DNA of 34,741 bases from Candidatus Kapaibacterium sp. (GTDB taxonomy: Bacteria > Bacteroidota > Ignavibacteria > Kapaibacteriales > UBA4661). Below, one piece after another: positions 1,507-29,318 of the stretch. Within the stretch, counting starts at the first letter, position 1. Every line of letters begins with the position of its first letter. Position numbers and translations under genes: made by a program. The notes beneath the pieces were generated by a model. It saw only the letters and a program-made list of their open reading frames with translations. It was not told the DNA's origin and did not search any database. Where the stretch lies: assembly GCA_025358765.1 (NCBI GenBank), contig JANYIG010000261.1, forward strand, positions 1 to 34,741, written 5' to 3'.

Positions 1507-2370
1507 CTATCCGTATGTTACGAAAAATGGAGAATTTATGCCCGCAGCGCTTACTTGCGTACTGCGAACCCCATAGACGTTCCACAATAGTTCTGGCTTG
1601 AGAACCGCGTGGGGAGCGCCTTCGGCAACCACACATCCATGATTGAGTACTAGCACGGCATCGCCATATTGCGCGGCAAGGTTAATGTCGTGCAGCACTG
1701 CCACAACAGCGGTATTCTGGGCAGCAAGTTCCCGTGCGGTGTGCAGGAATTCATGCTGATATTTTAAGTCGAGAAATGAAATCGGCTCATCCAGAAACAA
1801 ATACCGTGTCCCGTTTTGCGATAGAGTGTGTGAAGTATGTTCTGAGTGCTGCGGTGCTTCCCAAATTTGCGCCAAAACCCGCGCAAAATGGACACGTTGG
1901 CGCTCGCCACCCGAAAGCGTGAGGTAATTCCGTCTGCGGAAATCCATCATTCGGATTTGCTCCAAGGCTGCGGCGCAAATTTCGGTGTCGTGCCTCGTCG
2001 GTTTAAGCACAAAATGCGGGTAACGCCCCATCATAACCACTTCCTCCACCGTAAGTGGAAATGCCAACTCCGAATGTTGTGCCAACACTGCACGAACCCG
2101 CGCCAACTGGCTCCTATTTTTGGTTGTGAGGCGTTGTTCGCCGTACAAAACCTCGCCGGAGCCGCTTGTAAGCTCGCCAGCAAGAACATTCAGCAAGGTT
2201 GTTTTGCCGGAGCCGTTTGGTCCCAGAATCATCGAAACCTTTCCCGCTTCAAAGCGTGTGGTGATGCCGCGCAGAATCTCGTTGCCACCTAACGTCACCC
2301 GCAACTCACGGGCTTGCAGCGCCGTTCGAGGCTCAAGTATAGGTTGTTCAGGCAAAATTTGTTCAAGCAT
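1507..2370 (-). CDS. hmuV: Heme ABC transporter ATPase HmuV
   Basis: A 287-residue ABC ATPase that would power heme (or related iron chelate) import through HmuU at the inner membrane. Motifs: Walker A GPNGSGKTT (residues 50-58), Q-loop Q98, FPLTVEEVVMMGRYPHF (104-120), which is characteristic of HmuV, signature LSGGE (152-156), RVLAQIWE (164-171), Walker B YLFLDEP (190-196) and switch H227. A segment of about 18 residues between RVLAQIWE and Walker B (PQHSEHTSHTLSQNG) is Ser/His-rich and may be a low-complexity expansion. The ATG at 2370 is chosen over an upstream TTG because AAGGAGG lies 5 nt before it. It overlaps the hmuU stop by 8 bp, indicating translational coupling. Confidence 0.88.
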   Translation of the reverse strand: MLEQILPEQPILEPRTALQARELRVTLGGNEILRGITTRFEAGKVSMILGPNGSGKTTLLNVLAGELTSGSGEVLYGEQRLTTKNRSQLARVRAVLAQHSELAFPLTVEEVVMMGRYPHFVLKPTRHDTEICAAALEQIRMMDFRRRNYLTLSGGERQRVHFARVLAQIWEAPQHSEHTSHTLSQNGTRYLFLDEPISFLDLKYQHEFLHTARELAAQNTAVVAVLHDINLAAQYGDAVLVLNHGCVVAEGAPHAVLKPELLWNVYGVRSTQVSAAGINSPFFVTYG

Positions 2371-3430: not shown

Positions 3431-3457
3431 AATAAATTCGCTTGCAAGTAAGGTGCG

Positions 3458-4348
3458 TTAGCGGTGGATAAGTTCCATGAGCGTGAGTGTATTTGCGCCC
3501 GTGCGGGGACCAAGGTAAATTAAATCATGCTCTTCAACGCGGTAAATACGGTTGTTTTTGGCGGCGGGCGTGAGCGCGATGCCCGGCAAGTCTTTGAATT
3601 TCTCTAACCCAAGACGGTCGTAGCCAAAATCCGTAGCCAAAATCACGTCCGGCTGCGCTTGAGCGATAAGTTCAGGACTGATGGGCTTCATACCTTCGGT
3701 TGCGTCAATAGAGTTCACGCCGCCCGCCCATTCGAGCATCTTCGAGGCGGTGCTTTTTTGCCCGACAGCGAGGTAATTGTTCACCACTCTCCCAAAATGC
3801 AAAATAATGACCTTCACTGGCGCACCCGCGAACTGTTTGCGGCGCTCTTCGACGGTTTTCATGTCCGTGTCAAGTTTGTCGCAAAGCTCTTGTGCCTTCG
3901 ATTCAGCACCGAACTCCGTTCCGAGCATATGGATAAGCTGTTTTGTTTCGTCAATCGTCCGCGAACCTTGATATTGCTTGAGCGGAACGCCGACCTTCTG
4001 CATCTGCGCCACGACTGCTTCCGGAGCAATGCCGCCATCGTGCATCACCACCGTCGGGCGCAGTGAAATGATGCCTTCTGCGCTTAAAAGCCTGTGATAA
4101 CCTACGGTTGGGAGTTTTTTTGCTTCGGGCGGATAGGTGCTGGATAAATCCACGCCAACGAGCTTATTACCCGTGCCAAGCGCAAACATAATTTCCGTTA
4201 GTTGTTTTGACACACAAACGATGCGTGTTGTGTCGGCGCTGGCTTGTGCGCTTTCTTTGTTGCGGAAGCGGTCGCATGAAGTGAAGGCGGTAGAAGCCAG
4301 AGAAACAAGTCCCAGCGCCGCGTAGAGGAGATAATATCGTAGTTTCAT
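3458..4348 (-). CDS. hmuT: Heme-binding lipoprotein HmuT (periplasmic binding protein)
   Basis: A 296-residue periplasmic binding protein of the helical-backbone (PBP2/BtuF-like) class that would deliver heme to HmuU. The N-terminal signal has a lipobox ending at C25 (AFTSC), so it is a lipoprotein. RIVCVSKQLTEIMFALG, NKLVGVD, LPTVGYHRLLSAEGIISLRP and the HDGG turn are typical of HmuT/ChuT-type proteins. Lobe two carries AGGVNSID and PELIAQAQPDVIL. Start ATG at 4348. It lies between the TonB-dependent receptor (83 bp upstream) and hmuU (27 bp downstream), all on one strand. The heme assignment comes from operon context and the ATPase; cobalamin or siderophore binding is the main alternative. 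Confidence 0.82.
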   Translation of the reverse strand: MKLRYYLLYAALGLVSLASTAFTSCDRFRNKESAQASADTTRIVCVSKQLTEIMFALGTGNKLVGVDLSSTYPPEAKKLPTVGYHRLLSAEGIISLRPTVVMHDGGIAPEAVVAQMQKVGVPLKQYQGSRTIDETKQLIHMLGTEFGAESKAQELCDKLDTDMKTVEERRKQFAGAPVKVIILHFGRVVNNYLAVGQKSTASKMLEWAGGVNSIDATEGMKPISPELIAQAQPDVILATDFGYDRLGLEKFKDLPGIALTPAAKNNRIYRVEEHDLIYLGPRTGANTLTLMELIHR

Positions 4349-4431
4349 GTTGAATTTGCTTGAATGGAAGAAATAAAGAAAAGAAGCGGGACAAAAGTCA
4401 TGAATTGCTTCCGCCCCGCATAAAATTGAAC

Positions 4432-6774
4432 TTAGAACGTATAACGCAGCGACAAACCGCCATAGACCGTTGCTTTCGGTCCCGGATTAAAAAAGAGTGG
4501 CTGAGTCTGACCCGCAGCAGCTGTCAGGTTCAGGAAAATAAGCGACGAATATTTTGCGCCAGTGATATTGTCCGAACCCGCGAACACGTCCAATCCAAAA
4601 TGCTCGCTGAGTTTGCCGCGCCAGCCTGCTTTTGCGTTCAGAAGCGTGTATGCATCAGCATTGTAGCGGTTATCGTTGGTAATCGGCATCGTATCCACAA
4701 ACATCAGCGTTGTGTTCAGATACGCGCCAAACGATGTTTCCACGTCAACGCCGCCGTTCACGAGGTTTGGCGCTATGCCCACGAGTTTATTGCCGGAATA
4801 ATCAACCGTCGTTTTGTCGCCATTGTTGTTGCTCTTAAAATCTGTGTACGTAAAATTGCTGTATGTGTACGTCACAAACGGGCGAATAAGCGTAATCACA
4901 TCGCTTGCGGGCGCGTAGGCGTACGAAAGTGCAAGTTCAAGTCCTGTGTGCTGGACTTTCCCGGCATTTGTTGTAATCGCATACGCAGGCGTGGTGCCGA
5001 CGGCAGGGAAATTCTGCGGAATGAGTTTATCCGTGACTGCCATCGAAAAAAACGCCACTTCGTAGGTCAATGCCTTGCCAAACAGACTACCTTTCGAGCC
5101 AATTTCAAGGCTTAGAGCAGTTTCCGGCTTGAGGTCGAGGTTTACCAACCCGATTTGCGAAATCACAATTTGCCCCGTTCCCGGCGGCGAATAACCTTGG
5201 CTCACGCTTGCATACACCGAAAGCTCGTCGTTCACAATTTGCGTAAGCGCCACACGCGGCGTTACTACTGGTGCAAAACGTTTGTAGCCCGATTGATTAA
5301 TGTACAGCGGCGTTGTTGTGGCAGCCCGCATGTCGGTGATGTTGTACTCAATAAAATTCGCGCTGGCTCCCGCCGTGAGCAGTGTTGTGGGCGTGATGTT
5401 CACTTCCGCTTGTGCAAAAACGCTGTATTGCATTGCTTGAACTTCTAAATCGCTCCGCAACGCGCCCAAAATGGAGTTCGTTAGTCCGTAGGATTTTTGA
5501 AAGTTGAAGTTTTTCAGGAACTCCACGCCGCCCGTGAACTTCGCATCCATGCTGCCCAACGAGGCATTGTATGCAAATACCGAACGTGCGCCAAACTTCA
5601 CTTTGCTTGTTTTGTTCACACCTGCCGCAAACGGTTGGTCAATAATTGTGCCGGTGGAAAAGATACTGGATTTGTTAGAAAATTCCGGCGAAAAGCGGTA
5701 TTCGTGCGAAAAACCAGCGCGAACACTCTCCGTTTTGATGTTGGCGTTATTGGCGATGTAAGGCGCTTCGGCTATTTCGGGCGAATTGATGAGTTGCAGG
5801 CTATCTACTTGCCCCGAAAGCAGGTCATATGAGTTTGCATAGCTCACAAACACTGATGCCGTCTGCTTGTCGCTGGCAAAAAAATCACCGTTCATCGTCA
5901 GAAAATCCTTCAGCGAACGTCCGTGTGTGCGGAATCCATCGTAGGTTTGATGCCCATAGTTCAGGTAGATGTTCGCATTGTCCGTTCCGGCTTTGAGCGC
6001 CGTGTTCGTGCGGAACAGACCGTACGAGCCACCCATAACATTCTGCACAAGGCTTGTGGAGCCAGACGGGGCGCGTTCGGTCTGCATATTCACCACCCCG
6101 CCGATGCCTGTTCCGTACAGGCTTGAGGCGGGACCTTTCAAAACGTCCACCCGTGAAAGCACGGTAAAATCTACGTCGTCGAGGAACGTTGTGCCGTCGG
6201 CATCGGTGAGCGGCATGTCGTTCAAATATGCTTTGTACCCCACGCCGTTAAAATTTGTAGAATTACCGTAGCCGCGAAGAACAATGCGGGTTCCAGCCGC
6301 CGTTGTTCGCATTTCCATCTTTACGCCCGGAATAAGATTGAGCGTGTTTTGCAGGTGAATCCCGTTATTTCGCTGGAAATCTACCGTAGAAATCATGCCG
6401 ACCGAGCCGGGTGTTTCAAGGATTTTGCGCTGATTTGCATAACCCGTAACGCGCACTTCATTCATCGCCACATTCGATGGCTCCACAAGCACCGTGATAA
6501 AACGCTGCGAGCCGTCCACCGTCACTTCTTTCTTTTGATAACCTGTGTACGAAATGACAAGCTGCGCGGGTAGGCTTTCGAGCGCAAGCATAAATTCGCC
6601 GCGTTTATTGGCGGTTGTGCCTTTTTGTGAGTTTTTGACGGCGACGGTTGCGCCAATCAGAGGTTCCTGCGTGGATTGGTCAATCACGCGCCCTTTAATT
6701 TCGGTTTGTTGCGAAAAAAGAAGATGGCCGCAAAGCAGCATCAATACTGGAAAAATAAAGAATTGTGTTTTCAT
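4432..6774 (-). CDS. TonB-dependent receptor, heme/iron type, with CarboxypepD_reg domain
   Basis: A 780-residue outer-membrane receptor. Residues 1-22 form a signal peptide (ending LLFSQ). Residues about 24-105 are a carboxypeptidase-D regulatory-like domain (IKGRVIDQSTQEPLIGATV), common in Bacteroidota receptors. A plug follows (MNEVRVTGY, LNLIPGVKMEMR, IVLRGYG, VDVLKGPASSLYGTGIGGVVN), then a 22-strand barrel ending in the aromatic terminus SLRYTF. It would move heme or a ferric chelate across the outer membrane using TonB energy. ATG 6774 is preferred to a longer frame because the signal peptide begins there. The adjoining hmuTUV genes indicate the ligand; the receptor sequence alone does not distinguish heme from siderophore. 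Confidence 0.88.
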   Translation of the reverse strand: MKTQFFIFPVLMLLCGHLLFSQQTEIKGRVIDQSTQEPLIGATVAVKNSQKGTTANKRGEFMLALESLPAQLVISYTGYQKKEVTVDGSQRFITVLVEPSNVAMNEVRVTGYANQRKILETPGSVGMISTVDFQRNNGIHLQNTLNLIPGVKMEMRTTAAGTRIVLRGYGNSTNFNGVGYKAYLNDMPLTDADGTTFLDDVDFTVLSRVDVLKGPASSLYGTGIGGVVNMQTERAPSGSTSLVQNVMGGSYGLFRTNTALKAGTDNANIYLNYGHQTYDGFRTHGRSLKDFLTMNGDFFASDKQTASVFVSYANSYDLLSGQVDSLQLINSPEIAEAPYIANNANIKTESVRAGFSHEYRFSPEFSNKSSIFSTGTIIDQPFAAGVNKTSKVKFGARSVFAYNASLGSMDAKFTGGVEFLKNFNFQKSYGLTNSILGALRSDLEVQAMQYSVFAQAEVNITPTTLLTAGASANFIEYNITDMRAATTTPLYINQSGYKRFAPVVTPRVALTQIVNDELSVYASVSQGYSPPGTGQIVISQIGLVNLDLKPETALSLEIGSKGSLFGKALTYEVAFFSMAVTDKLIPQNFPAVGTTPAYAITTNAGKVQHTGLELALSYAYAPASDVITLIRPFVTYTYSNFTYTDFKSNNNGDKTTVDYSGNKLVGIAPNLVNGGVDVETSFGAYLNTTLMFVDTMPITNDNRYNADAYTLLNAKAGWRGKLSEHFGLDVFAGSDNITGAKYSSLIFLNLTAAAGQTQPLFFNPGPKATVYGGLSLRYTF

Positions 6775-6939
6775 GATTGTACGTGAGACTGGATGTTGAG
6801 AAAATACGAAAATGATACCTGCAACCGTGTGGCACAAAAAATAATCAGCCACGTGCGGAAATACGCAGAAGTACAGGAATGAAGCGCCCTTCAATGGAAG
6901 TGCGTCATTACTGAATTATAAATCTTGACTATTAGAGGG

Positions 6940-7597: not shown

Positions 7598-9139
7598 ATG
7601 GTAATGGTCAAACCACAAGCAGAGTGGCAAGCCCTGCAATCGCAGATGCAAGCGCTGATACCCGAAGCATTTGCCGCAAACGGGAACATGTTGAATCTCA
7701 AACACGGCGAATGGCAATCTCCGGGCAATGGCAAACTCTTTATCTCACCCGTAGATGGTTCACCGCTTGGCTATTACCCAATGCTTGATTTGGAAGCGGG
7801 AAAAGATGCCGTGTGTTTTGCGCGGGGTGAAGCCGATGCGTGGGCAAAAACAGATTTAGATACCCGCAAAGCCCGTGTTCATAAGTGTTTGGAAGATATG
7901 AAGGCGAATCAAGAGCTTTTGGCGTATTTGCTTGTGTGGGAAATTGGCAAACCCTTCGCGCAAGCAATGGTGAGCGTCGAGCGTTGTATTTCCGGTGTGC
8001 AGTGGTATATCGAAAATATCGAAACTATGATGGATAAACGTAAACCACTTGGGCTTATTTCCAACATTGCGTCGTGGAATTATCCGCTTTCCGTGCTTGT
8101 CCATGCGATGCTTGTCCAAATGCTGGCGGGCAACGCCTCCATTGCCAAAACACCGTCGGATGGCGGCATGTACGCGCTGTCGGTGTGTATGGCGTTTGCA
8201 CGACGGGCAGGATTGCCCGTATCGCTTGTGAGCGGCTCCGGCGGGCAGTTAAGCGATGCGCTCGTGCGAAACGATTACGTGGATTGTTTGGCGTTTGTAG
8301 GGGGCAAAAGCAACGGTCGCGATATTGCCGCAGCATTCTACGACCGTGATAAACGCTACATGTTGGAGATGGAAGGCTTGAATGCTTACGGTATTTGGAA
8401 TTTCAGCCAGTGGGACAAACTTGCCACACAAATCAAAAAAGGCTTCGAGTACGGTAAACAGCGCTGTACAGCATATCCGCGGTACGTCGTGCAACGAAAC
8501 CTGTTGCCAGACTTTCTGGACATGTATTTCCCTATTATCAAATCGCTCACATTCGGGCATCCGCTTTTGGTACAAAACCCTGACGACAAACCACCTGCAT
8601 TGGATTTTGGTCCCGTTATCAATAGCCGAAAAGTTGGTGAATTGGCTCTTATGTTTGGCGATGCACTTAGTCATGGAGCGGTGTGTCTGTATCAAGGAAA
8701 GTTTGACGAATCTAAATTCCTGCCCGGACAAGACTTGTCTGCCTATTTTGCACCGCGTATACTAACGCATATTCCCCGCAAAGCCAAGCTCTATCACAAT
8801 GAACCGTTTGGTCCGATGGATAGCATCGTTGTAGTGGATAGTATAGAAGAACTCGTCACCGAAATGAATGTCTCGAATGGCAGCCTTGTCAGCTCGCTTG
8901 CGTGTGACGACGAAAAGATTGCCAAAAGCATTGCTTCGGAGCTACGGAGCTTCAAAGTGGGTATCAATATCGTGCGGTCGCGCGGTGATAAGGACGAACC
9001 GTTTGGTGGCATCGGGCAATCGTGGAAAGGCTGTTTTGTGGGGGGTAAATACCTCGTACAATCCGTCACAACTGGTGAACCGGGCGAACGTTTGTATGGA
9101 AATTTCCCAGATTACACGTTATTGCCGGATATCCGATAA
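7598..9139 (+). CDS. Aldehyde dehydrogenase family protein
   Basis: A 513-residue NAD(P)-dependent aldehyde dehydrogenase; it would oxidise an unknown aldehyde to the acid in the cytoplasm. Catalytic features: N161 in ASWNYP (158-163), cofactor-contacting K184 in SIAKTPS, general base E257 in LEMEG (normally LELGG), and nucleophile C290 in YGKQRCTAYPR. The late EPFGGIG motif is also present. The LEMEG variant replaces a usually invariant glycine with Glu, so the family member is atypical and the substrate cannot be named. The ATG at 7598 is preferred; an in-frame ATG lies 6 nt later. No neighbour on the same strand suggests a pathway. It is divergent from the heme locus across 283 bp and followed by a hairpin. 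Confidence 0.85.
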   Translation: MVMVKPQAEWQALQSQMQALIPEAFAANGNMLNLKHGEWQSPGNGKLFISPVDGSPLGYYPMLDLEAGKDAVCFARGEADAWAKTDLDTRKARVHKCLEDMKANQELLAYLLVWEIGKPFAQAMVSVERCISGVQWYIENIETMMDKRKPLGLISNIASWNYPLSVLVHAMLVQMLAGNASIAKTPSDGGMYALSVCMAFARRAGLPVSLVSGSGGQLSDALVRNDYVDCLAFVGGKSNGRDIAAAFYDRDKRYMLEMEGLNAYGIWNFSQWDKLATQIKKGFEYGKQRCTAYPRYVVQRNLLPDFLDMYFPIIKSLTFGHPLLVQNPDDKPPALDFGPVINSRKVGELALMFGDALSHGAVCLYQGKFDESKFLPGQDLSAYFAPRILTHIPRKAKLYHNEPFGPMDSIVVVDSIEELVTEMNVSNGSLVSSLACDDEKIAKSIASELRSFKVGINIVRSRGDKDEPFGGIGQSWKGCFVGGKYLVQSVTTGEPGERLYGNFPDYTLLPDIR

Positions 9140-9806: not shown

Positions 9807-12800
9807 TTATTCCGCAATAAGCAATTGCGCTCCGGTGCGGGGAAGTTCGAGGATGAACGTCGCGCCCGTGTCCTGCTTGCTTTCCACGCGAATCGTACCG
9901 TTCATTGCCTCTGCCAATTTTTTAACAATAGACAAACCCAAGCCCGTTGAGTTTTCGCCGCCCGTTGGTCGTGCCGAAAGTTTTGCAAAGCGTTGAAAAA
10001 GCTGCTCTTTATCCTCGTCGCTAAAGCCCGGACCTTCGTCACGCACGGCAATACGAATGGAGAATGGAGAATCGAGAATGAGAAATTGGGAATTTCCTAT
10101 TTCTTCTTGCCCGCTACTGCTATCAACAGAAATCCAGACCGAGCGTTTGACTGGCGAATATTTGACGGCATTCGAGACAAGATTATCCAGAATTTGCGCT
10201 AATGCTTCTTTGTCCGCTGCCACGTAGAGTGTTTTTGGTGGAAGCGCAACATTCAGCGTGATGTGTTTTGCTTGCGCCCGCGCTTGGTATTCTTCTGCAA
10301 CGCGCTCTATGGCTTGGTTCACGTTTACTGGCTCTATCGTCATCGCCACCGAGCCGCGCTCTATGGCATTCACGTTCAACAGATTGCTAACCATTGCCAG
10401 CATTCGGTTTGACGATTCCGAAATCATCTCCGCAAATTCTTTAATCTCTGGTTGCGTGAACGACTCTAAGTCATAGCCAAGCATGTCCGATAGCGAAATC
10501 ACGCGCGAAAGCGGATTTTTCAGGTCGTGTGCCGCAATGCCCAAAAACTCATTTTTCTCTTCGTTCAAATCCTTGAGTGCCTCATTTTGGCGCACGATTT
10601 CGTCATTTGCCCACGAAAGCTCATGGTTGGTGCGCTCTAATTCTTTTGTGTATTCCTCAAGCTGCGCCGTCCGCAGGGCAACTTGTACTTCTAATTCTTC
10701 TTTTTGGCGTTCGATGGACTGTACACGTAACGTGTACGCCGAAAAAATGCCAAACAATATTAACCCCACGATTCCAATCCGAAACCACCACATCCTCCAA
10801 AACGGCGGCTCGACCACCACCACCACACGCAGTTCCGAAGCGCTCCACACGCCATCGCTGTTCGTGCCTTTTACGCGAAACACATAGCGACCATCATCCA
10901 AGTTCGTGTAGATGGCAAAATTACGATTCCCGACATTCACCCAACCTCCATCCACGCTTTCAAGCTGATAGATATAGCGATTTTTACCCGTGCCACTAAA
11001 ATCTAACGCTGCAAACTCGAACTCAATAAAATTGTCGTTATGGTTGAGGATAATTTCTTGTACGTTGGAAATATCGCTGTCAAACGTGCGTTCGTTGCCA
11101 AATACTTTGAATGCTGTCAGGACAATTGTGGGTGGGTGCGGGTTGTCATGGATTTGGTTAGGAACAAACGCATTAAAGCCGTTAATACCGCCAAAATACA
11201 ACTCGCCTTTCGCATTTTTGTAGAAGGCATTGGTGTTAAATTCGTTGCTCTGCAAACCATCATTGGCATCGTAGGTTTTGAAGGTTGTCGTTTGTTTATC
11301 GAATTTTGCCAATCCTTGATTTGTACCCATCCACAAAAATCCGTCATTATCCTCAATCACGCCGTAGATATAATCATTTCTCAGCCCGTTTGCCAAGCCG
11401 TAATTCGCACAGGTACTCGTTTGTGGGTCAAAGCGATTTAATCCGCTTGCGGTGGCTATCCAAAGCATTCCGTCGTGGTCTTCGTGGATAGATTTTATCC
11501 AATTATTGCTGATGCTCGTAGGCGCACTTGAGTTGGCTGGTGTTGTTGCGAGCGATCCAGCGCCTTGCGTTGTGTGGAAAATGCGCCGCCATATGTGCCG
11601 CACACGGTCAAGCGAATTTAAGCCGTCGGACGTGCCAACCCACAAGGTTTTATGACTATCCTCAAACAAGCACATCACGCGGCTGTCGCTTATGGTGTTG
11701 ATATTCGCCGGGTCGTGCAGATAGCGCACAAATGCTTGTTTCTCAGGCACAAAACGGTTTAAGCCTTTTGTCGTTCCCACCCAAATTGTTCCGCTTTTGT
11801 CTTCCAAAAATGCTCGCACACCATCGCCGCTCAAACTCGTGGAATCGTTCGGATTGTTCATAAACCGCGTGAATACTCCCGTTTGCGGGTTAAATTTGTT
11901 CACACCACCGCCGTTTGTGCCTATCCAAAATTCGCCCGTCCGCGCTTTATGAATCGTCCACACCTGCGGATGGCTGAGCGAAGCGGGGTTTCCGGGAATG
12001 GGAAGATATGTTTTCATCGCTCCCGTTGTTTTATTCAGATGAACCAAACCGTTATCCGTACCAATCCACAGCGTGTTCGCCCTCTCGTCGTTCGCCTGCT
12101 CATCCTCGTAGAACGCACGAACGCTGGTGTTGGACAGGGTGATGTTTACGTCCATACCGAGCGCGTCGGTGTAAGCCGGAAATTTTTGGCGATATGCACT
12201 CCACGAATGTAAGCCGCCTGTCGCCGTACCCACCCACATTATACCAGAACGATCTTGGTATAAACTCCGCACAAAACTATTGCTGAGGCTTTTTGGGTTC
12301 GATGCGTTGTAGGTATATCGTGCAAATGAAAGGTTCGTAAGCAATGTTGAGGAGGATTCGACGGAATCGCAGTTTGCAAGCAAGTTTAGTCCGTTTTCCG
12401 TACCAACCCAAAGTGTGCCAACATTGTCACGTAACAAGCTGTACACCGCATTATTACTTAAACTTTGGTCGTTGTTCGGATTGTTAAAAGTAGAATGAAC
12501 AGCGCCTAAACGAGGAGAACGAGGATTAAATAACCCCAAACCCTGATACGTTCCCAACCACAGCCGTCCTTTGCCGTCCGGCACAATGGCGTTGATGTGG
12601 TTGCTGATGGTGGAATCATTGACCTCGAAATACAGAGATTCAAATTCCTGTGTGCGAGGATTAAAGCGGTTCAGACCGTAATCCGTTCCCACCCAAAGTT
12701 GCCCGTCTGCGTCCTCGGCAATGGAAAACACAAACGTTCCGCTCAAACTTTTCTGGTTGTACGCATCGTGCAGGAACTGCCGGAAGCTCCCCGTAGCAGC

Positions 12801-13346
12801 GTCGAAGCGGTTCAGACCGTTATCCGTCCCTATCCACAACGCGCCAGAGCGGTCTTGATAGACGGCATTGACGAAGTTGCTGCTCAGGCAATTGCTCCTG
12901 CCCGGCGTTGTTTGATACGACGTAACACTGTTCGTGCGACGGTTAAAACAATTCAGCCCGCCGCCTTTGGTTCCAATCCAGATGTTTCCTTGTTTGTCCT
13001 CGCACAGCGCCAGCACCCAGCTATTGGAAAGCATGGTTGAGTCGCCGGATTTTGCGCGGTAAACGGTGAATTTGTAACCGTCATATTTGTTCAATCCTTC
13101 TTGCGTGCCGACCCATAAAAAACCTTTTGAGTCTTGCAAAATGGCGTGTACAGAGCTTTGCGAGAGACCTTTGTCAAGGGAAAGGCGTTGGAATTGCAGT
13201 GGTGCTGAACGTGGGGATACCGTCGGTAGGTGAATGTGTTCATGCTTCTGCGCGTGGCTCTGTACCTTGTTTTGGGCATAGAGAAACGGTATCGAATACA
13301 GCATCAACAGTGATACCGTAGCGTGGAATGGTATAAAAAATCGCAT
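9807..13346 (-). CDS. Giant sensor histidine kinase with double beta-propeller and Y_Y_Y domain
   Basis: A 1179-residue membrane kinase. After a signal peptide (ending FLYAQ), about 14 repeats of the two-component-regulator-propeller type (variants of GxLWVGTxxGLNRFD) fill residues about 45-720, enough for two seven-bladed propellers. A Y_Y_Y domain (about 750-845), a membrane segment (about 853-873), a coiled coil, HisKA with phospho-acceptor H940 in AAHDLKNP, and an ATPase domain (SNAVKY, DEGPGF, STGLGLS) follow. The layout is that of Bacteroidota hybrid sensors for extracellular ligands, but there is no C-terminal receiver or AraC domain. The ATG at 13346 is preferred to 13358 because GGAG lies 6 nt upstream. 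It begins 18 bp after the HACL2-like gene, so probably one operon. Ligand unknown. Confidence 0.9.
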   Translation of the reverse strand: MRFFIPFHATVSLLMLYSIPFLYAQNKVQSHAQKHEHIHLPTVSPRSAPLQFQRLSLDKGLSQSSVHAILQDSKGFLWVGTQEGLNKYDGYKFTVYRAKSGDSTMLSNSWVLALCEDKQGNIWIGTKGGGLNCFNRRTNSVTSYQTTPGRSNCLSSNFVNAVYQDRSGALWIGTDNGLNRFDAATGSFRQFLHDAYNQKSLSGTFVFSIAEDADGQLWVGTDYGLNRFNPRTQEFESLYFEVNDSTISNHINAIVPDGKGRLWLGTYQGLGLFNPRSPRLGAVHSTFNNPNNDQSLSNNAVYSLLRDNVGTLWVGTENGLNLLANCDSVESSSTLLTNLSFARYTYNASNPKSLSNSFVRSLYQDRSGIMWVGTATGGLHSWSAYRQKFPAYTDALGMDVNITLSNTSVRAFYEDEQANDERANTLWIGTDNGLVHLNKTTGAMKTYLPIPGNPASLSHPQVWTIHKARTGEFWIGTNGGGVNKFNPQTGVFTRFMNNPNDSTSLSGDGVRAFLEDKSGTIWVGTTKGLNRFVPEKQAFVRYLHDPANINTISDSRVMCLFEDSHKTLWVGTSDGLNSLDRVRHIWRRIFHTTQGAGSLATTPANSSAPTSISNNWIKSIHEDHDGMLWIATASGLNRFDPQTSTCANYGLANGLRNDYIYGVIEDNDGFLWMGTNQGLAKFDKQTTTFKTYDANDGLQSNEFNTNAFYKNAKGELYFGGINGFNAFVPNQIHDNPHPPTIVLTAFKVFGNERTFDSDISNVQEIILNHNDNFIEFEFAALDFSGTGKNRYIYQLESVDGGWVNVGNRNFAIYTNLDDGRYVFRVKGTNSDGVWSASELRVVVVVEPPFWRMWWFRIGIVGLILFGIFSAYTLRVQSIERQKEELEVQVALRTAQLEEYTKELERTNHELSWANDEIVRQNEALKDLNEEKNEFLGIAAHDLKNPLSRVISLSDMLGYDLESFTQPEIKEFAEMISESSNRMLAMVSNLLNVNAIERGSVAMTIEPVNVNQAIERVAEEYQARAQAKHITLNVALPPKTLYVAADKEALAQILDNLVSNAVKYSPVKRSVWISVDSSSGQEEIGNSQFLILDSPFSIRIAVRDEGPGFSDEDKEQLFQRFAKLSARPTGGENSTGLGLSIVKKLAEAMNGTIRVESKQDTGATFILELPRTGAQLLIAE
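10055..10096. repeat. Heptanucleotide-periodic tract inside the kinase ATPase domain
   Basis: Six successive 7-mers can be read on the plus strand: GAATGGA twice, then GAATCGA, GAATGAG and two degenerate copies. The period is not a multiple of three, so the repetition is a DNA-level property. On the coding strand it adds the in-frame residues NSQFLILDSPFSIR (about 1085-1098) just before the DEGPGF ATP-binding box. Confidence 0.6.
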
Positions 13347-13364
13347 GGAAAGCTCCATGAAAAG

Positions 13365-15134
13365 CTACATGGAAAGTGAACCTTTACGAAATTCGGTTTT
13401 TCCGATAAGCGCATTGATAAGGAATGGCTTGCCCTCACGTGCCGAACGCTTTGCTTGGGCAATCACGCTTCCAAGTTCATCGGCACGTTGTACGACGGCA
13501 CCCTCGCCGCCAAAGCCTCGCGCCACGTCGTGATAATTTGTTCGTGCAAGAACCGTGCCGACATCATCGCCGAGCAAGGTGATTTGGTCACGGGCTATCT
13601 GCGTCCAGCCCGCATCGTTCCCCACTACTGCGATAACACCCATGCCGTGCCGCGCAAAGGAATCAAACTCCGCAATGCTATAACCCGCCGAGCCGTCACC
13701 GTAAAAAATCCATACCTCCGCATCGGGTTTGATAGCCTTCACGCCAAGCGCAAAACCCGCGCCCACGCCAAGCGTTCCGAATACGCCCGGGTCGTACCAT
13801 GCAAGCGGCGTTCGCGGTCGCACGATGTACGAGGCGGTTGCCACAAAATCCCCGCCGTCGGCAACAATAACGCTATTGTCCGCCAAGTGTTTGTCAAGCT
13901 CGCGGCAGAGATGAAGCGGATTCAGGTACTCGCCCATCGTCTCGGCTGCCTGCCGCGCAATATCGTCGTTGCGAACGGCATCGCGGTTGCGAAGCGTGGA
14001 ATGATGCGTACTGAGCGTAGATTGGTCGAGGTGGGTCGCGTCCGCCAGCGCCAACAAAAACTCCATCGGGTCGCCAAGCAGCGCCACGTCGGGGGTGCGG
14101 TTTTTGGTCAAATCTTCTTCGGAGCGATTGACGGAAACGAGCTTCGCACGGCGGCTGATGTGGTTGCCGTAATCCAAGCGGAAATCGCACGGAACACCCG
14201 CAAGGATGACCACATCTGCTTCACGGAGCGCTTCTTTGCGTTTGTGCCGCATCTGGAACGCGCTTTCCGTGCCGAGCAGTCCCCGCGCCATGCCGGAAAG
14301 ATACACAGGAATACCGAGTTTATCCACCGCCAGCGCCAATTCATGCGCCTTGCGAGCGTTCAGCATCGTCTGGCTGCCTATCACCATCACGGGGCGTTCG
14401 GCACGACGCAGAATAGCCGCCACCTGCTCCGCACCGGAACGCGGAATCTGCTTGAACTCGCCGCGCACAGGCTCGTCGCTCTGCTTATCCGTTAGGTTTT
14501 GCGCCGCGTCCGCTTGGTCGAACATCGCATCCAAATGGCGTTTTAAATACCACTGGATGGCTTGTTGCTGAATTTTCTGCGGAAGGCTCTTTGCGCCTGT
14601 GTCGCCGGACTTGATGCCATACCATTCGCGGATAATCGCCTGCGGGAAAAGCGTATCTATCGGCAATTCTACAAACACCGGACCCGGAACGCCAGACAGC
14701 GCCACGCGGAACGCCTCGCGCAGCACGTCGGGGATGTTGCGTACACGTTTGATGCTCACCGCCCACTTTACGTGCGGCTTGATAAGCGCCATCTGATCAA
14801 TATCTTGTAACGAACCACGCCCTTTCAGCACGGTTGCGGTTGCGCCACCCAAGAGGATAAGCGGTGACTGCGCCATTTGTGCGTTTTTGACGGCGGTTAT
14901 CGTGTTCGTCACGCCCGGACCCGCCGTGACTGCTGCCACGCCCGGAATGCCCGTCAGCCGCGCAACAGCGTCGGCGGCAAAGACGGCGTTGACTTCGTGG
15001 CGCGTGTCCACCACACGGATGCCCACGTTTTTGCAGCCAATCAGAATCGGCGCAATATGTCCGCCACAGAGCGTAAAAAGTGTTGTCACGCCTTGCGAAG
15101 CAAGGGTTTTGGCTACGAGTAATCCGCCGTCCAT
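13365..15134 (-). CDS. Thiamine-diphosphate lyase, HACL2/ILVBL-like (acetolactate synthase-like)
   Basis: A 589-residue TPP-dependent enzyme. It has the conserved N-terminal Glu (E47 in [13 protein letters not shown]), the central domain ([17 protein letters not shown]), and the TPP/Mg motif [12 protein letters not shown]...GNDAGW. Several signatures match human ILVBL (2-hydroxyacyl-CoA lyase 2) better than acetolactate synthase, by recall: [52 protein letters not shown] and the tail KTEFRKGS. The human enzyme cleaves 2-hydroxy-acyl-CoA to an aldehyde and formyl-CoA. The bacterial substrate is unknown. No small IlvH subunit or ilv gene is nearby, which argues against branched-chain synthesis. 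The ATG at 15134 is 51 bp after the upstream exported-protein gene; the kinase gene follows after 18 bp. Confidence 0.85.
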
Positions 15135-15183: not shown

Positions 15184-15275
15184 TGCTACTTCCGGCTGGA
15201 TGCGCCGGAGACGAGTAAATCTGTTATCAGCAGTCCTTTTTCGGCAGTCGTCTTTTTTGTGAGGTCGTAGGAATC
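15184..15275. repeat. 92-bp direct repeat, copy 1 (3' end of paralogue A)
   Basis: Aligns without gaps to 16477-16568 with four mismatches in 92 positions by eye. It covers the stop codon and the last 30 codons of the gene. Similarity falls off sharply upstream, so this end has been kept more alike, or homogenised, than the rest of the gene. Confidence 0.85.
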
Positions 15276-15758
15276 TCGAGATGATATGTCTTTGACTAAT
15301 CCTATCAATCCAAATAAAATACCCCAACCTGCGGGGGCTGAGTAATTTGGCTGCTCGCGTCCCCCGCTGGCTGCATATGTAAGCGTTCCATGGAAAATAC
15401 TTGCAAGAACCCCACCGCCAATTCCATACCATAGTGCGACAGATGGAGGACTATACCTGATACTCGTGATAGTGCTAATCTGTAACGCTTGTATCCGTCG
15501 ATCTTTTCCGCCCGCCCATTCAAAACGAGACAACCGCTTGGAAACATATAACGTATCAGCTACAAGGCTATCCAAGCGCACACCATCAACACTGGTTTGG
15601 TCAGCAGTTACAATATCCCAGTCCGCCTCTTGTGCTTTGCCGCTTTGAGCAATTATACATTGCGCTGGCACGGGCTGTTCTTGCGCCTCTTGTGCAAGCG
15701 CGGGAGCCATTTCCACACACAGGCAGGAAAAGAACGCAAGGCAATATGTTCTGTTCAT
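15186..15758 (-). CDS. Exported small protein, paralogue A flanking vapBC
   Basis: A 190-residue protein of unrecognised family. A signal peptide ends near PALAQ. The mature part contains [32 protein letters not shown] and ITSIRYS, a beta-rich pattern, then a Gly-rich hydrophobic segment ([11 protein letters not shown]) and a second one ([11 protein letters not shown]). It ends in [21 protein letters not shown]...ASSRK, which is nearly identical to the tail of the gene at 16479. The two are clearly paralogues by order of motifs, although their middles have diverged. The ATG at 15758 is preferred to a GTG at 15788 because the signal peptide starts there. A periplasmic or outer-membrane location is inferred; the function is unknown. 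Confidence 0.65.
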
Positions 15759-15853
15759 AGCATTACGAGGGTTGGTGTTGAAGAACACGAAATAACCGTT
15801 AAAATTAACCCTTAATTCGCATGAAGAGTGTTAATCAATGCTCCTTCCGGCAA

Positions 15854-16252
15854 TCATAGCTGAAAAATATTCAGGTTGAAATATTCTACAAACGGCTCAA
15901 AATCATTATCTGCGTGAAGCAGGGGCAAATTGTGGTGTATGCAAAATGTCGCTATTAGGCAATCTATCGTTTTGCGAACGGTAATCCCTTGCAAACGAAG
16001 AAAACGGTAATGGTCGGCGCTTTGCACAGCAATATCCCTGTCGAGCATGGTATAAAACGGCAAGGCAAGCAAGAGCCGCTTTGCTACGTCGTAATCACGT
16101 TGATGGCGAAATCCTTGCAAAACCTCTGTGAGGATAAGGTCGCCCATAAGAACTTGCTCGTGACGCAGTGCTGCATCCAGCGCGTCTGCCTGTGGTGTTG
16201 GGCTGCCATTAAAGTAGTCAATCCATACAGAAGAGTCAACGAATATCTTCAT
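15854..16252 (-). CDS. vapC: PIN-domain ribonuclease toxin VapC
   Basis: A 132-residue PIN-domain protein of normal VapC length. The acidic active-site set is visible: D6 (MKIFVDSSVWIDYF), E43 (LTEVLQGF), D97 (KTIDCLIATF) and D115/D117 (LLHADNDFEPF). Family members cleave RNA, often initiator tRNA or rRNA, when freed from the antitoxin. The ATG at 16252 lies inside the antitoxin gene, with a 17-bp overlap, the usual coupled arrangement. It is embedded between two paralogous exported-protein genes on the same strand. All catalytic residues are present, so the toxin looks intact. Confidence 0.88.
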   Translation of the reverse strand: MKIFVDSSVWIDYFNGSPTPQADALDAALRHEQVLMGDLILTEVLQGFRHQRDYDVAKRLLLALPFYTMLDRDIAVQSADHYRFLRLQGITVRKTIDCLIATFCIHHNLPLLHADNDFEPFVEYFNLNIFQL

Positions 16253-16445
16253 GGCGTTGCTCTCGAAGCTTGGGTAAATCGCCGCTCCACGCTAATGCGC
16301 CGCGTAGCTCGCGTATATTCTCCTGCACACGCATTTGCACATACAGCCGTAATGCCTCATTGACCAACATATCAACCGATTGGTCTTTGTCAAACTCCCG
16401 TACCTGCTTAAGCAAGGTATCATCAAGCATAAGAGTTGTTTGCAT
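16236..16445 (-). CDS. vapB: Antitoxin VapB (ribbon-helix-helix type)
   Basis: A 69-residue protein with an N-terminal beta-strand MQTTLMLDD followed by LLKQVREFD and the helix VDMLVNEALRLYVQMRV, which is the ribbon-helix-helix DNA-binding layout of VapB (DUF2191-like) antitoxins. The C-terminal half (LRGALAWSGDLPKLREQR) would wrap the toxin active site; a Trp/Gly/Leu motif there is common in the family. AGGA-like sequence precedes the ATG at 16445. It overlaps vapC by 17 bp and starts 33 bp after paralogue B, so it may be read from that gene's promoter as well as its own. Autoregulation is expected but no operator was resolved. Confidence 0.82.
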   Translation of the reverse strand: MQTTLMLDDTLLKQVREFDKDQSVDMLVNEALRLYVQMRVQENIRELRGALAWSGDLPKLREQRHEDIR

Positions 16446-16476: not shown

Positions 16477-16568
16477 TGCTACTTCCGGCTGGATGCGCCA
16501 GAGACGAGTAAATCTGTTAACAGCAGCCATTTTTCGGCAGTCGTCTTTTTTGTGAGGTCGTAGGAATC
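16477..16568. repeat. 92-bp direct repeat, copy 2 (3' end of paralogue B)
   Basis: Partner of 15184-15275, same orientation, 1293 bp apart, about 88 of 92 positions identical by eye. Recombination between the copies would remove vapBC and most of one paralogue, leaving a single fused gene. Confidence 0.85.
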
Positions 16569-17045
16569 GTGACCCGGGTTGTCAATAATTGCGCCGATAA
16601 TAAACCCTACAGCACCGCCCAATAAAGCGCCGCGTAAAAATTCAGTATTTCCATAGGGAGAAGAATTGACTCCACCCGCAATCATTGACGTTACAAATGC
16701 CCCACCTATCGAGTACCAAGGACTCATTGACGAACTGTGGGTCATTTTCTCAATATCGCCAACGAACAAGCGTTTGAGGACACTTGCTTGCCCTGTAGAG
16801 CGTTCATAGCGCGACGACTGCTTGTAGGCATACAACCTATCAGCAAGCAAGCTGTCCAAGCGCACTTCTTCAACGCTGATTCTGTTTGTCGTGATAATAT
16901 TCCATTTCAGTTCCTGCGCTTTTCCACTTTGTGCCACCACGCGCTGCGCTGGCACATGCCGTTCTTGTGTCTCTTGTGCAAACGCGGAAGCTGCACAAAC
17001 CAGCAGCAAAGCCGCGAGCATCCAAGTATTGCGGTGTGTCATCAT
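16479..17045 (-). CDS. Exported small protein, paralogue B flanking vapBC
   Basis: A 188-residue paralogue of the product encoded at 15186. It has a signal peptide (MMTHRNTWMLAALLLV, ending ASAFAQ), then the shared blocks [35 protein letters not shown] and VGDIEKM. A Gly-rich hydrophobic region resembling a glycine zipper (SIGGAFVTSMIAGG, RGALLGGAVGFIIGAII) is longer than in paralogue A. The tail [21 protein letters not shown]...SSRK is shared. The first of two adjacent ATGs is used as start. A TATATTTG box and a large palindrome lie upstream. The family has no name I recognise; an envelope role is inferred from the signal peptide and the glycine-rich membrane segments. Confidence 0.65.
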   Translation of the reverse strand: MMTHRNTWMLAALLLVCAASAFAQETQERHVPAQRVVAQSGKAQELKWNIITTNRISVEEVRLDSLLADRLYAYKQSSRYERSTGQASVLKRLFVGDIEKMTHSSSMSPWYSIGGAFVTSMIAGGVNSSPYGNTEFLRGALLGGAVGFIIGAIIDNPGHDSYDLTKKTTAEKWLLLTDLLVSGASSRK

Positions 17046-17080
17046 GATTGTACATTTGTGAAAAAAGTCTTGCGGTATTC

Positions 17081-17184
17081 CCCTCATCCCAACCTTCTCC
17101 CAAAAGCAAAGAAGCCGGATAGAAAGCTCTCGCCCGCCACGCCTTCGTGAGGGGAGAGGATTGGGGAGAGAATTGGGGTGAGGG
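17081..17184. repeat. Imperfect intergenic inverted repeat, REP-like
   Basis: The left arm CCCTCATCCCAACCTTCTCC (17081-17100) and the right arm ending TTGGGGTGAGGG (17164-17184) are complementary apart from a few positions, about 60 bp apart. CCCTCAnCCCAA...CTCTCCC palindromes are dispersed in many unrelated bacterial genomes. Here it fills the gap after the NtrY-like gene and would lie in the leader of paralogue B. Confidence 0.65.
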
Positions 17185-17231: not shown

Positions 17232-18596
17232 TCAAAACCGCAGCGTAAACGTCGTGCCGTGTTCCGGCTGCGACTGAGCCGTGATGCTGCCTCCGTGCAA
17301 TCGCATTATTTGCCGCGCCAAACTCAAGCCAATGCCGGAGCCGTCGGGTTTGGTGGTGAAAAACGGAATAAAAATCTTCTCCAACGCAGACGGCACAATG
17401 CCAGCGCCGTTGTCTGCCACGTACATCACCACGCGCCCACGCTCGTTCAGTCGTGCTGTGAGGCGAATCGTGGGGCTGTGATTGCGTTTGCCTTCCAGCG
17501 CGTGGATTGCATTGATAACGAGGTTGATTAAGGTTTGTTCTAACAGTTTTTCATCGGCGGTAAGCTCCAACGTAGGCGGTTGAACATCCACCACCAACGT
17601 CACGGAAGCCGCTTCTAATCGCGGGCGCAGGAATTCGTGGATGGTTGCAAAGAGTTCCGCAATCACAAAGAGCTTAAAATCGGGTTTGGGAACGCGGGTA
17701 AGATTGCGGTAATTCTCCACGAAGCGCATCAATCCTATGCTACGCTTGTGAATCGTTTGTGCTGCGCTGCGAATATCCGTTACGGTCTCCGTTTGCTGTA
17801 AAGCGCTTGCATCCTGTGATAGAAGGCTGTTGATGGTGTCGGACAGTGACGAAATGGGCGCTATCGAATTCATAATCTCGTGCGTCAACACACGAATGAG
17901 CATTTGCCACGCTTCCATCTCTTTTTCTTCGAGTTCGCTGACGATGTTTTGCAGCGACACCAACGTAAACTCGCGTCCGCTCATGCGGAATTTCGTGCTT
18001 GCCACAACGATTTGCAGCAGCTCATCATCCACAACCAGCTTCACGAGCGCTTTTTCACCTGCTTGCATGGCGGAAAGCTGCGCCGCGAGTGCCTTCCCGC
18101 TTGGTACATGCCGCTCCAAATCGCGAATAAATCGTAGATGTGGAATATTCAAGAGCTTGCGGGCTGCAGGGTTGATAAAATCTATCGCCCCGTGCTGGTC
18201 GAAGGAGAGAAGCCCGATGCCGACGTGCTGCAAAATTGTCTGCACCGCTTGGTATTGCTCTTCTTTTTCGGAGCGGATATGCTGAAACTGCGATAAAACC
18301 TTGTTAAACGCATCCGAAAGCTCTTGAAACGAGCTTCCAAGTGCATCCGGCGCAAAATGCTGCGACGAATCCGCGTATTGCACTGCCTCCAAAAAGCGCA
18401 ATAGCTGGCGGTTCGTGGATTCCACATACCGAATCAAACCCCACATTTGCGCCACCGCCAACACGGTCACAATCGCCATGCTTGCGTACAGCGCCGTATT
18501 TGCGGCAAGGTAGAGCAACAATAACAGCGTTGCGGCAATCGCCAACACGCGTACGATGCACTGAAGGCGAAAATATTTGCGGACGGCGATAGTCAT
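17232..18596 (-). CDS. NtrY-type sensor histidine kinase
   Basis: A 454-residue kinase. Two N-terminal membrane helices (about residues 13-55) are followed by a HAMP-like linker, a PAS-like region (ILQHVGIGLLSFDQHGAIDFINPAARKLL, about 121-150), a dimerisation helix with phospho-acceptor His in RVLTHEIMNSIAPI, and an ATPase domain (NLVINAIHAL, ADNGAGI, FFTTKPDGSGIGLSLARQI). HEIxNSLAPI-type H-boxes and the short periplasmic loop are typical of the NtrY branch. Its ATG overlaps the NtrC-type regulator's stop as ATGA, so the two are translationally coupled and surely act as a pair. The signal sensed is unknown. Confidence 0.9.
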   Translation of the reverse strand: MTIAVRKYFRLQCIVRVLAIAATLLLLLYLAANTALYASMAIVTVLAVAQMWGLIRYVESTNRQLLRFLEAVQYADSSQHFAPDALGSSFQELSDAFNKVLSQFQHIRSEKEEQYQAVQTILQHVGIGLLSFDQHGAIDFINPAARKLLNIPHLRFIRDLERHVPSGKALAAQLSAMQAGEKALVKLVVDDELLQIVVASTKFRMSGREFTLVSLQNIVSELEEKEMEAWQMLIRVLTHEIMNSIAPISSLSDTINSLLSQDASALQQTETVTDIRSAAQTIHKRSIGLMRFVENYRNLTRVPKPDFKLFVIAELFATIHEFLRPRLEAASVTLVVDVQPPTLELTADEKLLEQTLINLVINAIHALEGKRNHSPTIRLTARLNERGRVVMYVADNGAGIVPSALEKIFIPFFTTKPDGSGIGLSLARQIMRLHGGSITAQSQPEHGTTFTLRF

Positions 18597-20005
18597 AATC
18601 CATATTTCTCCATGCGTCGGTACAGCGCAGCCCGCGTCAATCCAAGCTCCTCTGCTGCGTGGCTGACGTTCCCGCTATGTTTCGAGAGTGCTTTGCGGAC
18701 GGCAAGTTTTTCGAGGTCTTCGAGGTTGAAATTTTCGATGGCAAGGTTGGAAACGTTGTCGTTATTCGCTTCCACCGCAGAAAGCGCTATGCTACTTGGT
18801 TGCAACACTTTTTCGTCGTCACTCATTATTACTGCACGTTCTAACGTGTGCTGAAGCTCGCGCACATTGCCGCGCCACGGGTAAGACGTGAGTTTTTTCA
18901 GCGCCGATTGCGACAAGGATTTGACGGGTTTGCGATACTTCGCGCAATATTGGCGTAAAAAATGTTCCGCCAAAAGCGGGATGTCTTCGGAGCGCTTGCG
19001 AAGTGGTGGAAGGTTGATTTCGACCGTGTTCATGCGGTACAGCAGGTCTTGACGGAATTGTTTTTTTTCGACCATTTCGTACAGCGGCATATTCGTCGCA
19101 CAAACGAGGCGAATGTCAATCGGAACATGTTTGTTGCTTCCAACACGTGTAACGGTGCGATTTTGCAGCACGGTCAGCAACTTTGCTTGCAGTGGCAGCG
19201 AGAGATTCCCAATTTCATCCAAAAAAAGCGTTCCGCCGGATGCAATCTCGAAGCGCCCTGCACGGTCTTCCTTCGCATCGGTGAACGCGCCTTTGGTGTG
19301 ACCAAATAGCTCGCTCTCGAACAACGTCTCGCTGATAGCACCCATATCCACGCTGATAAACACCTCGCCCGACCGTGCCGAACGGCGGTGTAGTTCCCGT
19401 GCAGCGACTTCTTTGCCCGTGCCATTTTCACCCAAAATCAGCACTGTCGCATCGGTTTTTGCCACTTTGTCGAGCAGCGTGTTTATGGTTTGCATCACCT
19501 CCGATTGCCCGATGAAATCGTGCGCGGGGGCGTTTTTATCCGCCATTGCGGAAAGCGCAGAACGGAGCGCTGTTTTTTGAGATTTCAGCGTTTCTACCTC
19601 GCGTTTTGTGCCGGAAAGATTCATTGCCGAAGAAATCGTGGCGAGGAGTTTTTCGTTTTCCCATGGCTTCAGCACAAAATCTGTTGCGCCTTGTTTAATG
19701 GCGCGGATGGCGGTATCCATGTCGCCGTAGGCAGTAATCATCACCACCACAGCCGACGGGTCGAGTTCCAAAATGCGCCCAAGCCAGTGAAAACCTTCCT
19801 CGCCGCTGCTCACATCTTTCGTGAAGTTCATATCGAGCAAAATCACGTCGTAGCGCTCGTTTCTAAGCAGCGTGGGAATGGCTTCCGGCTTGGTCTCGCA
19901 ATGAACAAGGGCGTAATGTTGTTTTAACAGCAATCGCAGCGAAAGCAGTACGTCTTCGTTATCGTCAATAGCTAAAATTTTACCGTATTTTTCGTCGTTT
20001 TTCAT
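18593..20005 (-). CDS. NtrC-family sigma-54-dependent response regulator
   Basis: A 470-residue regulator with three domains. The receiver (1-125) has phospho-acceptor D58 in ILLDMNF. The AAA+ domain (about 162-395) has Walker A GENGTGKE (192-199), the sigma-54 contact loop GAFTDA (239-244) and Walker B GGTLFLDEIG (257-266). A Fis-type HTH lies at the C-terminus (about 430-470). The loop differs from canonical GAFTGA by G to D, but keeps the key Phe and Thr; the same variant is known in other NtrC relatives. It would activate sigma-54 promoters when phosphorylated by the NtrY-like kinase, with which it overlaps by 4 bp. No sigma-54 (GG-N10-GC) site was confidently found in the window. Promoter at 20073-20103. 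Confidence 0.92.
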   Translation of the reverse strand: MKNDEKYGKILAIDDNEDVLLSLRLLLKQHYALVHCETKPEAIPTLLRNERYDVILLDMNFTKDVSSGEEGFHWLGRILELDPSAVVVMITAYGDMDTAIRAIKQGATDFVLKPWENEKLLATISSAMNLSGTKREVETLKSQKTALRSALSAMADKNAPAHDFIGQSEVMQTINTLLDKVAKTDATVLILGENGTGKEVAARELHRRSARSGEVFISVDMGAISETLFESELFGHTKGAFTDAKEDRAGRFEIASGGTLFLDEIGNLSLPLQAKLLTVLQNRTVTRVGSNKHVPIDIRLVCATNMPLYEMVEKKQFRQDLLYRMNTVEINLPPLRKRSEDIPLLAEHFLRQYCAKYRKPVKSLSQSALKKLTSYPWRGNVRELQHTLERAVIMSDDEKVLQPSSIALSAVEANNDNVSNLAIENFNLEDLEKLAVRKALSKHSGNVSHAAEELGLTRAALYRRMEKYGL

Positions 20006-29293: not shown

Positions 29294-29318
29294 CCAAGAA
29301 CCAATGACGAATGACCAC
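29291..29318. repeat. Heptamer-periodic tract across kinase stop and regulator start
   Basis: Four consecutive 7-mers: TGACCAA, GAACCAA, TGACGAA, TGACCAC. The first supplies the kinase stop codon, and the ATG of the response regulator (29304-29306) spans the second and third. The regulator's first residues (MTNDHN) are translated repeat. Confidence 0.55.

Follow-up and report, generated by a model that had tools for sequence, protein, structure and literature searches.

A predicted HACL2-type 2-hydroxyacyl-CoA lyase and a double-propeller sensor kinase in a lineage-restricted gene pair of Kapaibacteria

On the minus strand of a contig of Candidatus Kapaibacterium sp. (GCA_025358765.1, JANYIG010000261.1; positions 1 to 34,741, the whole stretch of 34,741 nucleotides analysed here and called the window below), the gene of a thiamine pyrophosphate (TPP)-dependent enzyme is closely followed by that of a very large sensor histidine kinase. 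What kind of reaction does this enzyme catalyze, and does its position before a sensor mean that the two proteins work together? An earlier note on this DNA had proposed a lyase resembling human HACL2 (ILVBL), coupled to an orphan kinase. The locus consists of the following elements:

13365..15134, minus strand: HACL2-type TPP-dependent lyase P0001, a predicted 2-hydroxyacyl-CoA lyase of 589 amino acids (from Pfam, clade, residues, and AlphaFold2 model)
13347..13364, minus strand: 18-nucleotide intergenic gap from enzyme to kinase, with GGAG six nucleotides 5' of the kinase ATG
9807..13346, minus strand: double-propeller (Reg_prop/Y_Y_Y) sensor histidine kinase of 1,179 amino acids, without receiver or DNA-binding domain (from Pfam and PDB matches)

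Both open reading frames (ORFs) and their spacing are as first described, the kinase ATG at 13346 giving the 18-nucleotide gap; with an alternative in-frame ATG, at 13358, the gap would be 6 nucleotides. The two-gene unit is real and restricted to its lineage, and its proteins are of known kinds. With moderate confidence, we favor the explanation that it is a Kapaibacteria-type transcription unit, in which a HACL2-type 2-hydroxyacyl-CoA lyase is accompanied by a propeller kinase that would signal to an unlinked response regulator.

Pfam identified TPP_enzyme_N, TPP_enzyme_M, and TPP_enzyme_C in P0001. In the 84,980 species genomes that were scanned, 358 stretches encoded relatives of this protein, and 80 of them (51-65% best-segment identity) were kept; these belonged to Bacteroidota, Chloroflexota, Acidobacteriota, Myxococcota, Pseudomonadota, Desulfobacterota, Planctomycetota, Calditrichota, and Lokiarchaeota, among others. 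Our own ORF script recovered the enzyme in 72 of the 80 loci, and the residue and adjacency counts rest on these 72. Human HACL2 is an enzyme that shortens fatty acids. The human HACL2 reference, on which every HACL2 identity and tree result depends, was a reconstructed sequence of 632 amino acids rather than a database record, and it agrees with the published E557 (PMC8760513) as well as with I554 and Q161 (PMC13327070, Table 1). P0001 was 47% identical to this HACL2 over 593 columns, compared with 27% to E. coli IlvI, 25% to E. coli Oxc, and 23% to the IlvB of its own genome. In a tree of 38 rows, HACL2 and the prokaryotic family formed one clade apart from acetohydroxyacid synthases (AHAS) and proteins like oxalyl-CoA decarboxylase (OXC), with a support of 100 in the Shimodaira-Hasegawa-like approximate likelihood ratio test (SH-aLRT), and in a tree of 19 rows the HACL2-like clade including P0001 was separated from the AHAS and OXC-like rows at 100/100. 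HACL2 fell inside the prokaryotic rows in quick trees and was their sister (80/80) in the careful 19-row tree, finer claims being limited by long branches. Placing P0001 with the acetolactate synthases by constraint was rejected by the approximately unbiased test (p-AU 0.043). These comparisons support a HACL2-like rather than an IlvB identity of the enzyme, as the earlier note had supposed. The literature search for bacterial HACL2/ILVBL homologues gave no paper recognisable as such among the records listed.

The AlphaFold2 model of P0001 (predicted local distance difference test score, pLDDT, 88) had its best PDB fold matches in HACL/HACS, benzaldehyde lyase, and OXC chains, and because the HACL, benzaldehyde lyase, and OXC chains score alike, the fold search cannot separate the subfamilies. 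The best PDB sequence match was AcHACL (7pt1-7pt4), and no HACL2 chain was among the sequence matches.

P0001 has E47, the cofactor-activating Glu, together with Q110 (HACL2 Q161 type), I513 (I554 type), and D516 at the position of HACL2 E557. Gln and Ile are invariant in the Q110 and I513 columns (72/72 family rows each), and the E557 column contains Glu in 43 and Asp in 29 of the 72. The same column is Trp in 17 of 20 other TPP rows, E. coli IlvI, and the genome's own IlvB, and Gly in E. coli Oxc and two OXC-like rows. A carboxylate in this column alone is not diagnostic, because Asp is likewise found there in an AcHACL-like protein of Methylibium, which has Glu at the AcHACL-E493 column. 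HACL2 E557 has been proposed as the counterpart of AcHACL E493, with Asp allowed in some cases (PMC8760513), and the E493D variant of AcHACL was very poor (PMC13327070); the Asp at 516 may or may not work. An AcHACL-type identity was set aside, since P0001 has Ile at the E493 column and scored 270.7 bits with the actinobacterial-type HACL model NF058623, below its cut-off of 600. Likewise, it is highly improbable that the enzyme is an oxalyl-CoA decarboxylase: the fold is the same, but P0001 has Gln (Q110) where OXC has Glu (E121 position; PMC13327070, Table 1), the OXC model gave 217 bits against a cut-off of 557 and TIGR03254 (oxalyl-CoA decarboxylase) 192 against 739, and no frc-like gene lies beside the enzyme.

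The genes around the relatives bear on the substrate class. In a first tally of 72 loci, an AMP-binding ligase cluster was present in 14 and a CoA-transferase cluster in 5, with a gene order that varies across Bacteroidota, Burkholderiales, Gemmatimonadota, Calditrichota, Desulfobacterota, and Gammaproteobacteria. Pfam was then run on 97 of 131 operonic neighbors (third neighbors were left out, as were some second neighbors and overlapping or short ORFs, these by hand) and on 97 control genes drawn at random, up to two per locus, from 333 lying at least 1.5 kb away. These counts rest on our own ORF calls, with 8 of the 80 loci missing from the first tally and back in the second, and the loci are not independent. 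The operonic neighbors included AMP-binding (13), isochorismatase (8), 4HBT thioesterase (7), aldehyde dehydrogenase (4), and CoA-transferase (4) proteins, and more rarely GMC oxidoreductase (3), Fumble (pantothenate-kinase-type, 2), and HATPase_c (2), the two each of HATPase_c, Reg_prop, and Y_Y_Y being the kinases of loci L008 and L009. Among the control genes, AMP-binding and aldehyde dehydrogenase occurred once each, and isochorismatase, 4HBT, and CoA-transferase at most once each. In the sister clade of the Kapaibacteria enzymes, lyase, isochorismatase, and a FadD11-like ligase are in a single operon, which mirrors the lyase-HCL cluster of Actinomycetospora, whose ligase makes 2-hydroxyisobutyryl-CoA and whose lyase cleaves it to acetone and formyl-CoA (PMC7176365). 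The CoA-type neighbors and this parallel make a CoA-dependent 2-hydroxyacyl lyase the best reading of the enzyme.

As such a lyase, P0001 would cleave the C1-C2 bond of a 2-hydroxyacyl-CoA by the thiamine ylide route, releasing formyl-CoA and an aldehyde or ketone one carbon shorter, with D516 possibly taking the role proposed for HACL2 E557. CoA activation could be provided by ligases encoded elsewhere: a homologue of the operonic CoA ligase, 38% identical, is on contig C247 of the source genome, and matches away from the enzyme (38-40% identity) were found in 9 of 10 Kapaibacteria genomes, one of them partial at 48%. Phytanoyl-CoA-dioxygenase-like genes (PF05721) were rejected as evidence; they are present in 6 of the 10 genomes, absent from the source genome, and do not track the enzyme.

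Several points weigh against this reading of the enzyme. The IlvB grouping was rejected only at p-AU 0.043 in the presence of long branches, the human reference was a reconstruction, and the Kapaibacteria operon contains no CoA ligase. A change from Glu to Asp is very harmful at AcHACL E493 (PMC13327070), although D516 is at a different position, that of HACL2 E557. In addition, mouse ILVBL has been assigned acetolactate-type chemistry, namely the formation of pyruvate-derived dimethylglyoxal (PMC11237006). This last point, together with PRK05858 'acetolactate synthase' as the highest-scoring NCBIfam model (408 bits), would suit a divergent acetolactate- or acyloin-forming enzyme, such as an accessory AHAS or a dimethylglyoxal-type activity, which we regard as distinctly unlikely. 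No NCBIfam model exceeded its own cut-off for P0001 (587 for PRK05858; 216.8 bits against 538.35 for TIGR00118, AHAS), the protein lies outside the AHAS clade, and its relatives have CoA-type neighbors. An IlvB identity was also rejected on the genome's own inventory: a separate AHAS above the TIGR00118 cut-off is encoded on contig C20, adjoined by IlvN- and IlvC-like genes (both labelled by eye), no regulatory subunit gene (IlvN) is beside P0001, and the sole further PF02776 match in the genome is a MenD-like protein (label by eye). P66947 is IlvG, of the PRK05858 type. This protein is listed as a 'mycobacterial HACL' in PMC13327070 (Table 1), which also speaks against the acetolactate alternative. 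The gene neighbors of the relatives suggest that a widespread family whose best curated model is named acetolactate synthase, and whose proteins often carry that label, would instead be HACL2-type lyases of 2-hydroxyacyl-CoAs.

Further gene associations were observed among the relatives. Six Acidobacteriota loci (L016, L018, L024, L049, L064, and L079) have a glutamate-semialdehyde dehydrogenase-like gene one or two genes upstream of the HACL2-like gene, the copy in L016 scoring above the TIGR01236 cut-off. At three gammaproteobacterial loci (L057, L059, and L066), genes for a CoA-transferase-like protein, the HACL2-like lyase, and a GMC protein resembling cholesterol oxidase follow one another, with an aldehyde dehydrogenase-like gene next in L059 and L066; this arrangement possibly represents a sterol or terpenoid side-chain pathway. 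The HACL2-like enzymes of Lokiarchaeota (L068, L071, L072, and L084) have a small thioesterase-like gene directly upstream in three of the four loci.

Is the adjacency of enzyme and kinase also meaningful? The family sample comprised ten genomes, G000 (the source) to G009, with an enzyme search threshold of E<=1e-60. The enzyme was found in four of them (G000, G001, G005, and G007), forming one clade (SH-aLRT 96), and the kinase adjoins it on the same strand in three, from two genera, with gaps of 18 (G000), 28 (G005, locus L008), and 14 nucleotides (G007, locus L009); in G001 it does not. The stretches around the pair in G005 and G007 contain no orthologues of the other window genes, only two-component paralogues. 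Adjacency thus outlasted a change of all surrounding genes, which favors a co-transcribed unit, and co-transcription of enzyme and kinase appears likely from this comparison. No promoter-like site was seen in 13347-13364, and the one weak terminator-like hairpin (13359-13344) overlaps the kinase start. A structured or terminator element in the gap was rejected, because terminator-like sites showed no excess over shuffles (11 vs 9.2 +/- 2.8) and no comparable fold occurred in the equivalent gaps of two relatives.

The proposed coupling stood only in part. The pair is kept in two relatives of another genus, but it is not general: a propeller kinase is beside the enzyme in only these two relatives and at none of the other 70 of 72 scorable loci, nor in G001, and all genomes with the pair belong to one family, a point against the favored explanation. 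In the kinase tree, the window kinase grouped with one each from G002, G003, G005, G008, and G009 (100/98); the G007 kinase is absent from this tree, its orthology resting on two pieces with 75-84% identity to the G005 kinase. Four of these genomes (G002, G003, G008, and G009) retain the orthologous kinase, and the enzyme was not found in them at the search threshold. Therefore, the main role of the kinase is probably elsewhere, and its retention alone argues against a dedicated regulatory bond with the enzyme. A family-9 glycosyltransferase gene, the same in each case, comes after the kinase in G005, G007, G008, and G009 (L107, L113, L118, and L120), not in the window, so that this association is as conserved as that of enzyme and kinase. 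Most simply, enzyme and kinase formed an old unit from which the enzyme was later lost.

These observations also agree with inherited synteny without function: the kinase would serve a separate signalling circuit, and its place behind the lyase in three genomes would be incidental. We give this alternative somewhat less than an even chance: the kinase without enzyme in four genomes, the enzyme without kinase in G001, and the 70 loci lacking a propeller kinase favor it, but adjacency was kept across genera, with short same-strand gaps, while all other surrounding genes differed. At the other extreme, the kinase might be a specific controller of the lyase pathway, with an external 2-hydroxy or branched acid, a glycolipid, or a related ligand as its signal. 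The enzyme in the genera g1 and g3 is never without the adjoining kinase (3/3); nevertheless, such control is unlikely given the four genomes with kinase alone, the lack of any regulator partner found, and the oligosaccharides that are ligands of Bacteroides propeller kinases (PMC3243724). A signalling link from kinase to enzyme is possible. In the co-transcribed unit that we favor, the kinase would ride on the transcript of the enzyme, and therefore both proteins would be made together.

The earlier note had described a hybrid-sensor-like kinase without receiver or output domain, and Pfam confirmed this: Reg_prop, Y_Y_Y, HisKA, and HATPase_c were identified, no receiver or helix-turn-helix (HTH) domain was, and the chain ends after HATPase. 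The protein has 13 blade motifs ([LIVMF][WYF][IVMLF][GA]T), one predicted transmembrane segment near residue 855, His940, and intact N-, G1-, and G2-boxes, in keeping with an active kinase that has a double propeller. The sensor domains of known structure closest to it (PDB 4a2l, 3v9f, and 3ott) all come from hybrid two-component systems; our own structure model was unusable (mean pLDDT 51, three sequences). An orphan giant propeller kinase is nothing unusual: at E<=1e-80 the source genome contains at least 16 matches, counting the kinase itself, and a receiver-less propeller/Y_Y_Y orphan sensor kinase, ReeS of Clostridium perfringens, has been published as a regulator of sialidases, an example of such a kinase at work (PMC3762733). 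Placed in the inner membrane, the kinase would most likely bind an extracytoplasmic ligand and phosphorylate an unlinked response regulator. A receiver-HisKA hybrid was rejected as a conserved regulator partner. It lies upstream of the enzyme in G007, at a distance of three genes, and in the vicinity of the kinase in G003, but it occurs in 9 of the 10 genomes and is off the contig of the pair in G000 and G005.

The window contains further genes around the pair:

15186..15788, minus strand: hypothetical protein, 51 bp upstream of the enzyme, no Pfam match, not conserved with the pair
15854-16252, minus strand: PIN-domain protein (PF01850, Pfam)
16236-16445, minus strand: ORF of 69 amino acids overlapping and preceding the PIN gene, with the look of a VapB-type antitoxin (label by eye)
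17232-18596, minus strand: sensor kinase of a two-component pair, overlapping the NtrC-type regulator gene
18593-20005, minus strand: NtrC-type sigma-54 response regulator, partner of the preceding kinase
7598-9139, plus strand: aldehyde dehydrogenase family gene, convergent with the propeller kinase, with a DinB gene between
1507-6894, minus strand: ABC ATPase, FecCD permease, Peripla_BP_2 protein, and TonB-dependent receptor in a row

No response regulator gene is directly beside the enzyme-kinase pair, as had been noted, although the window has two complete two-component pairs, one about 3.5 kb upstream of the lyase (17232-20005) and one formed by kinase 27512-29293 and regulator 29229-30032. 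The hypothetical protein at 15186..15788 is possibly the first gene of the transcript; no relative of it was found beside the pair in other genomes. It resembles the hypothetical protein at 16479-17087 (minus strand), with the common C-terminal end ...VSGASSRK, and the two, probably tandem duplicates, stand on either side of the toxin-antitoxin-like pair. The aldehyde dehydrogenase at 7598-9139 is tempting as a consumer of the lyase product, but it is not kept beside the pair in the relatives. The row at 1507-6894 is a predicted cobalamin- or siderophore-type uptake locus. The PADLOC scan gave no result.

Taken together, the HACL2 idea named the right kind of enzyme, and the 'coupling' amounts to a probable operon restricted to one lineage. 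Of main interest is that a broad prokaryotic family can be reassigned as HACL2-like; the pairing with a kinase is of lesser interest and peculiar to the lineage. With CoA ligases, CoA-transferases, thioesterases, and aldehyde dehydrogenases as neighbors, the substrate class becomes testable, and soluble bacterial homologues would aid the study of HACL2. A bolder idea, speculative and of low probability in our judgment, is a kinase-linked release of C1 units, with the lyase under a dedicated sensor of the same 2-hydroxy or branched acyl compound and the HACL2-type enzymes as an alpha-oxidation family of prokaryotes, among them Lokiarchaeota, that gave rise to the eukaryotic enzyme. We know of no membrane-signalled alpha-oxidation unit of this kind from elsewhere. 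Formyl-CoA lyases are also wanted for one-carbon carboligation (PMC8760513).

Among known systems, the Bacteroides hybrid two-component systems (e.g., 4a2l), whose propeller kinases sense oligosaccharides (PMC3243724), share the Reg_prop double propeller, Y_Y_Y, HisKA, and HATPase with the window kinase, which differs in having neither receiver nor HTH. ReeS is similar as a propeller/Y_Y_Y sensor kinase without receiver or partner gene, but it regulates sialidases and is not described beside a TPP enzyme (PMC3762733). On the enzyme side, PRK05858 is the highest-scoring NCBIfam model, yet P0001 stays under its cut-off. Relatives of P0001 occur with CoA ligases and aldehyde dehydrogenases, as described for AcHACL (PMC7176365), from which P0001, about 29% identical to it in the fold alignment, differs by Ile in place of E493 and by a ligase encoded outside the window operon. 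Human HACL2 differs from P0001 in having Glu at 557 where P0001 has Asp, and P0001 has no N-terminal extension and is encoded by a bacterial gene that adjoins a kinase; nevertheless, the reconstructed human sequence falls in the same clade, matches Q110 and I513 with Q161 and I554, and has a similar C-terminal motif.

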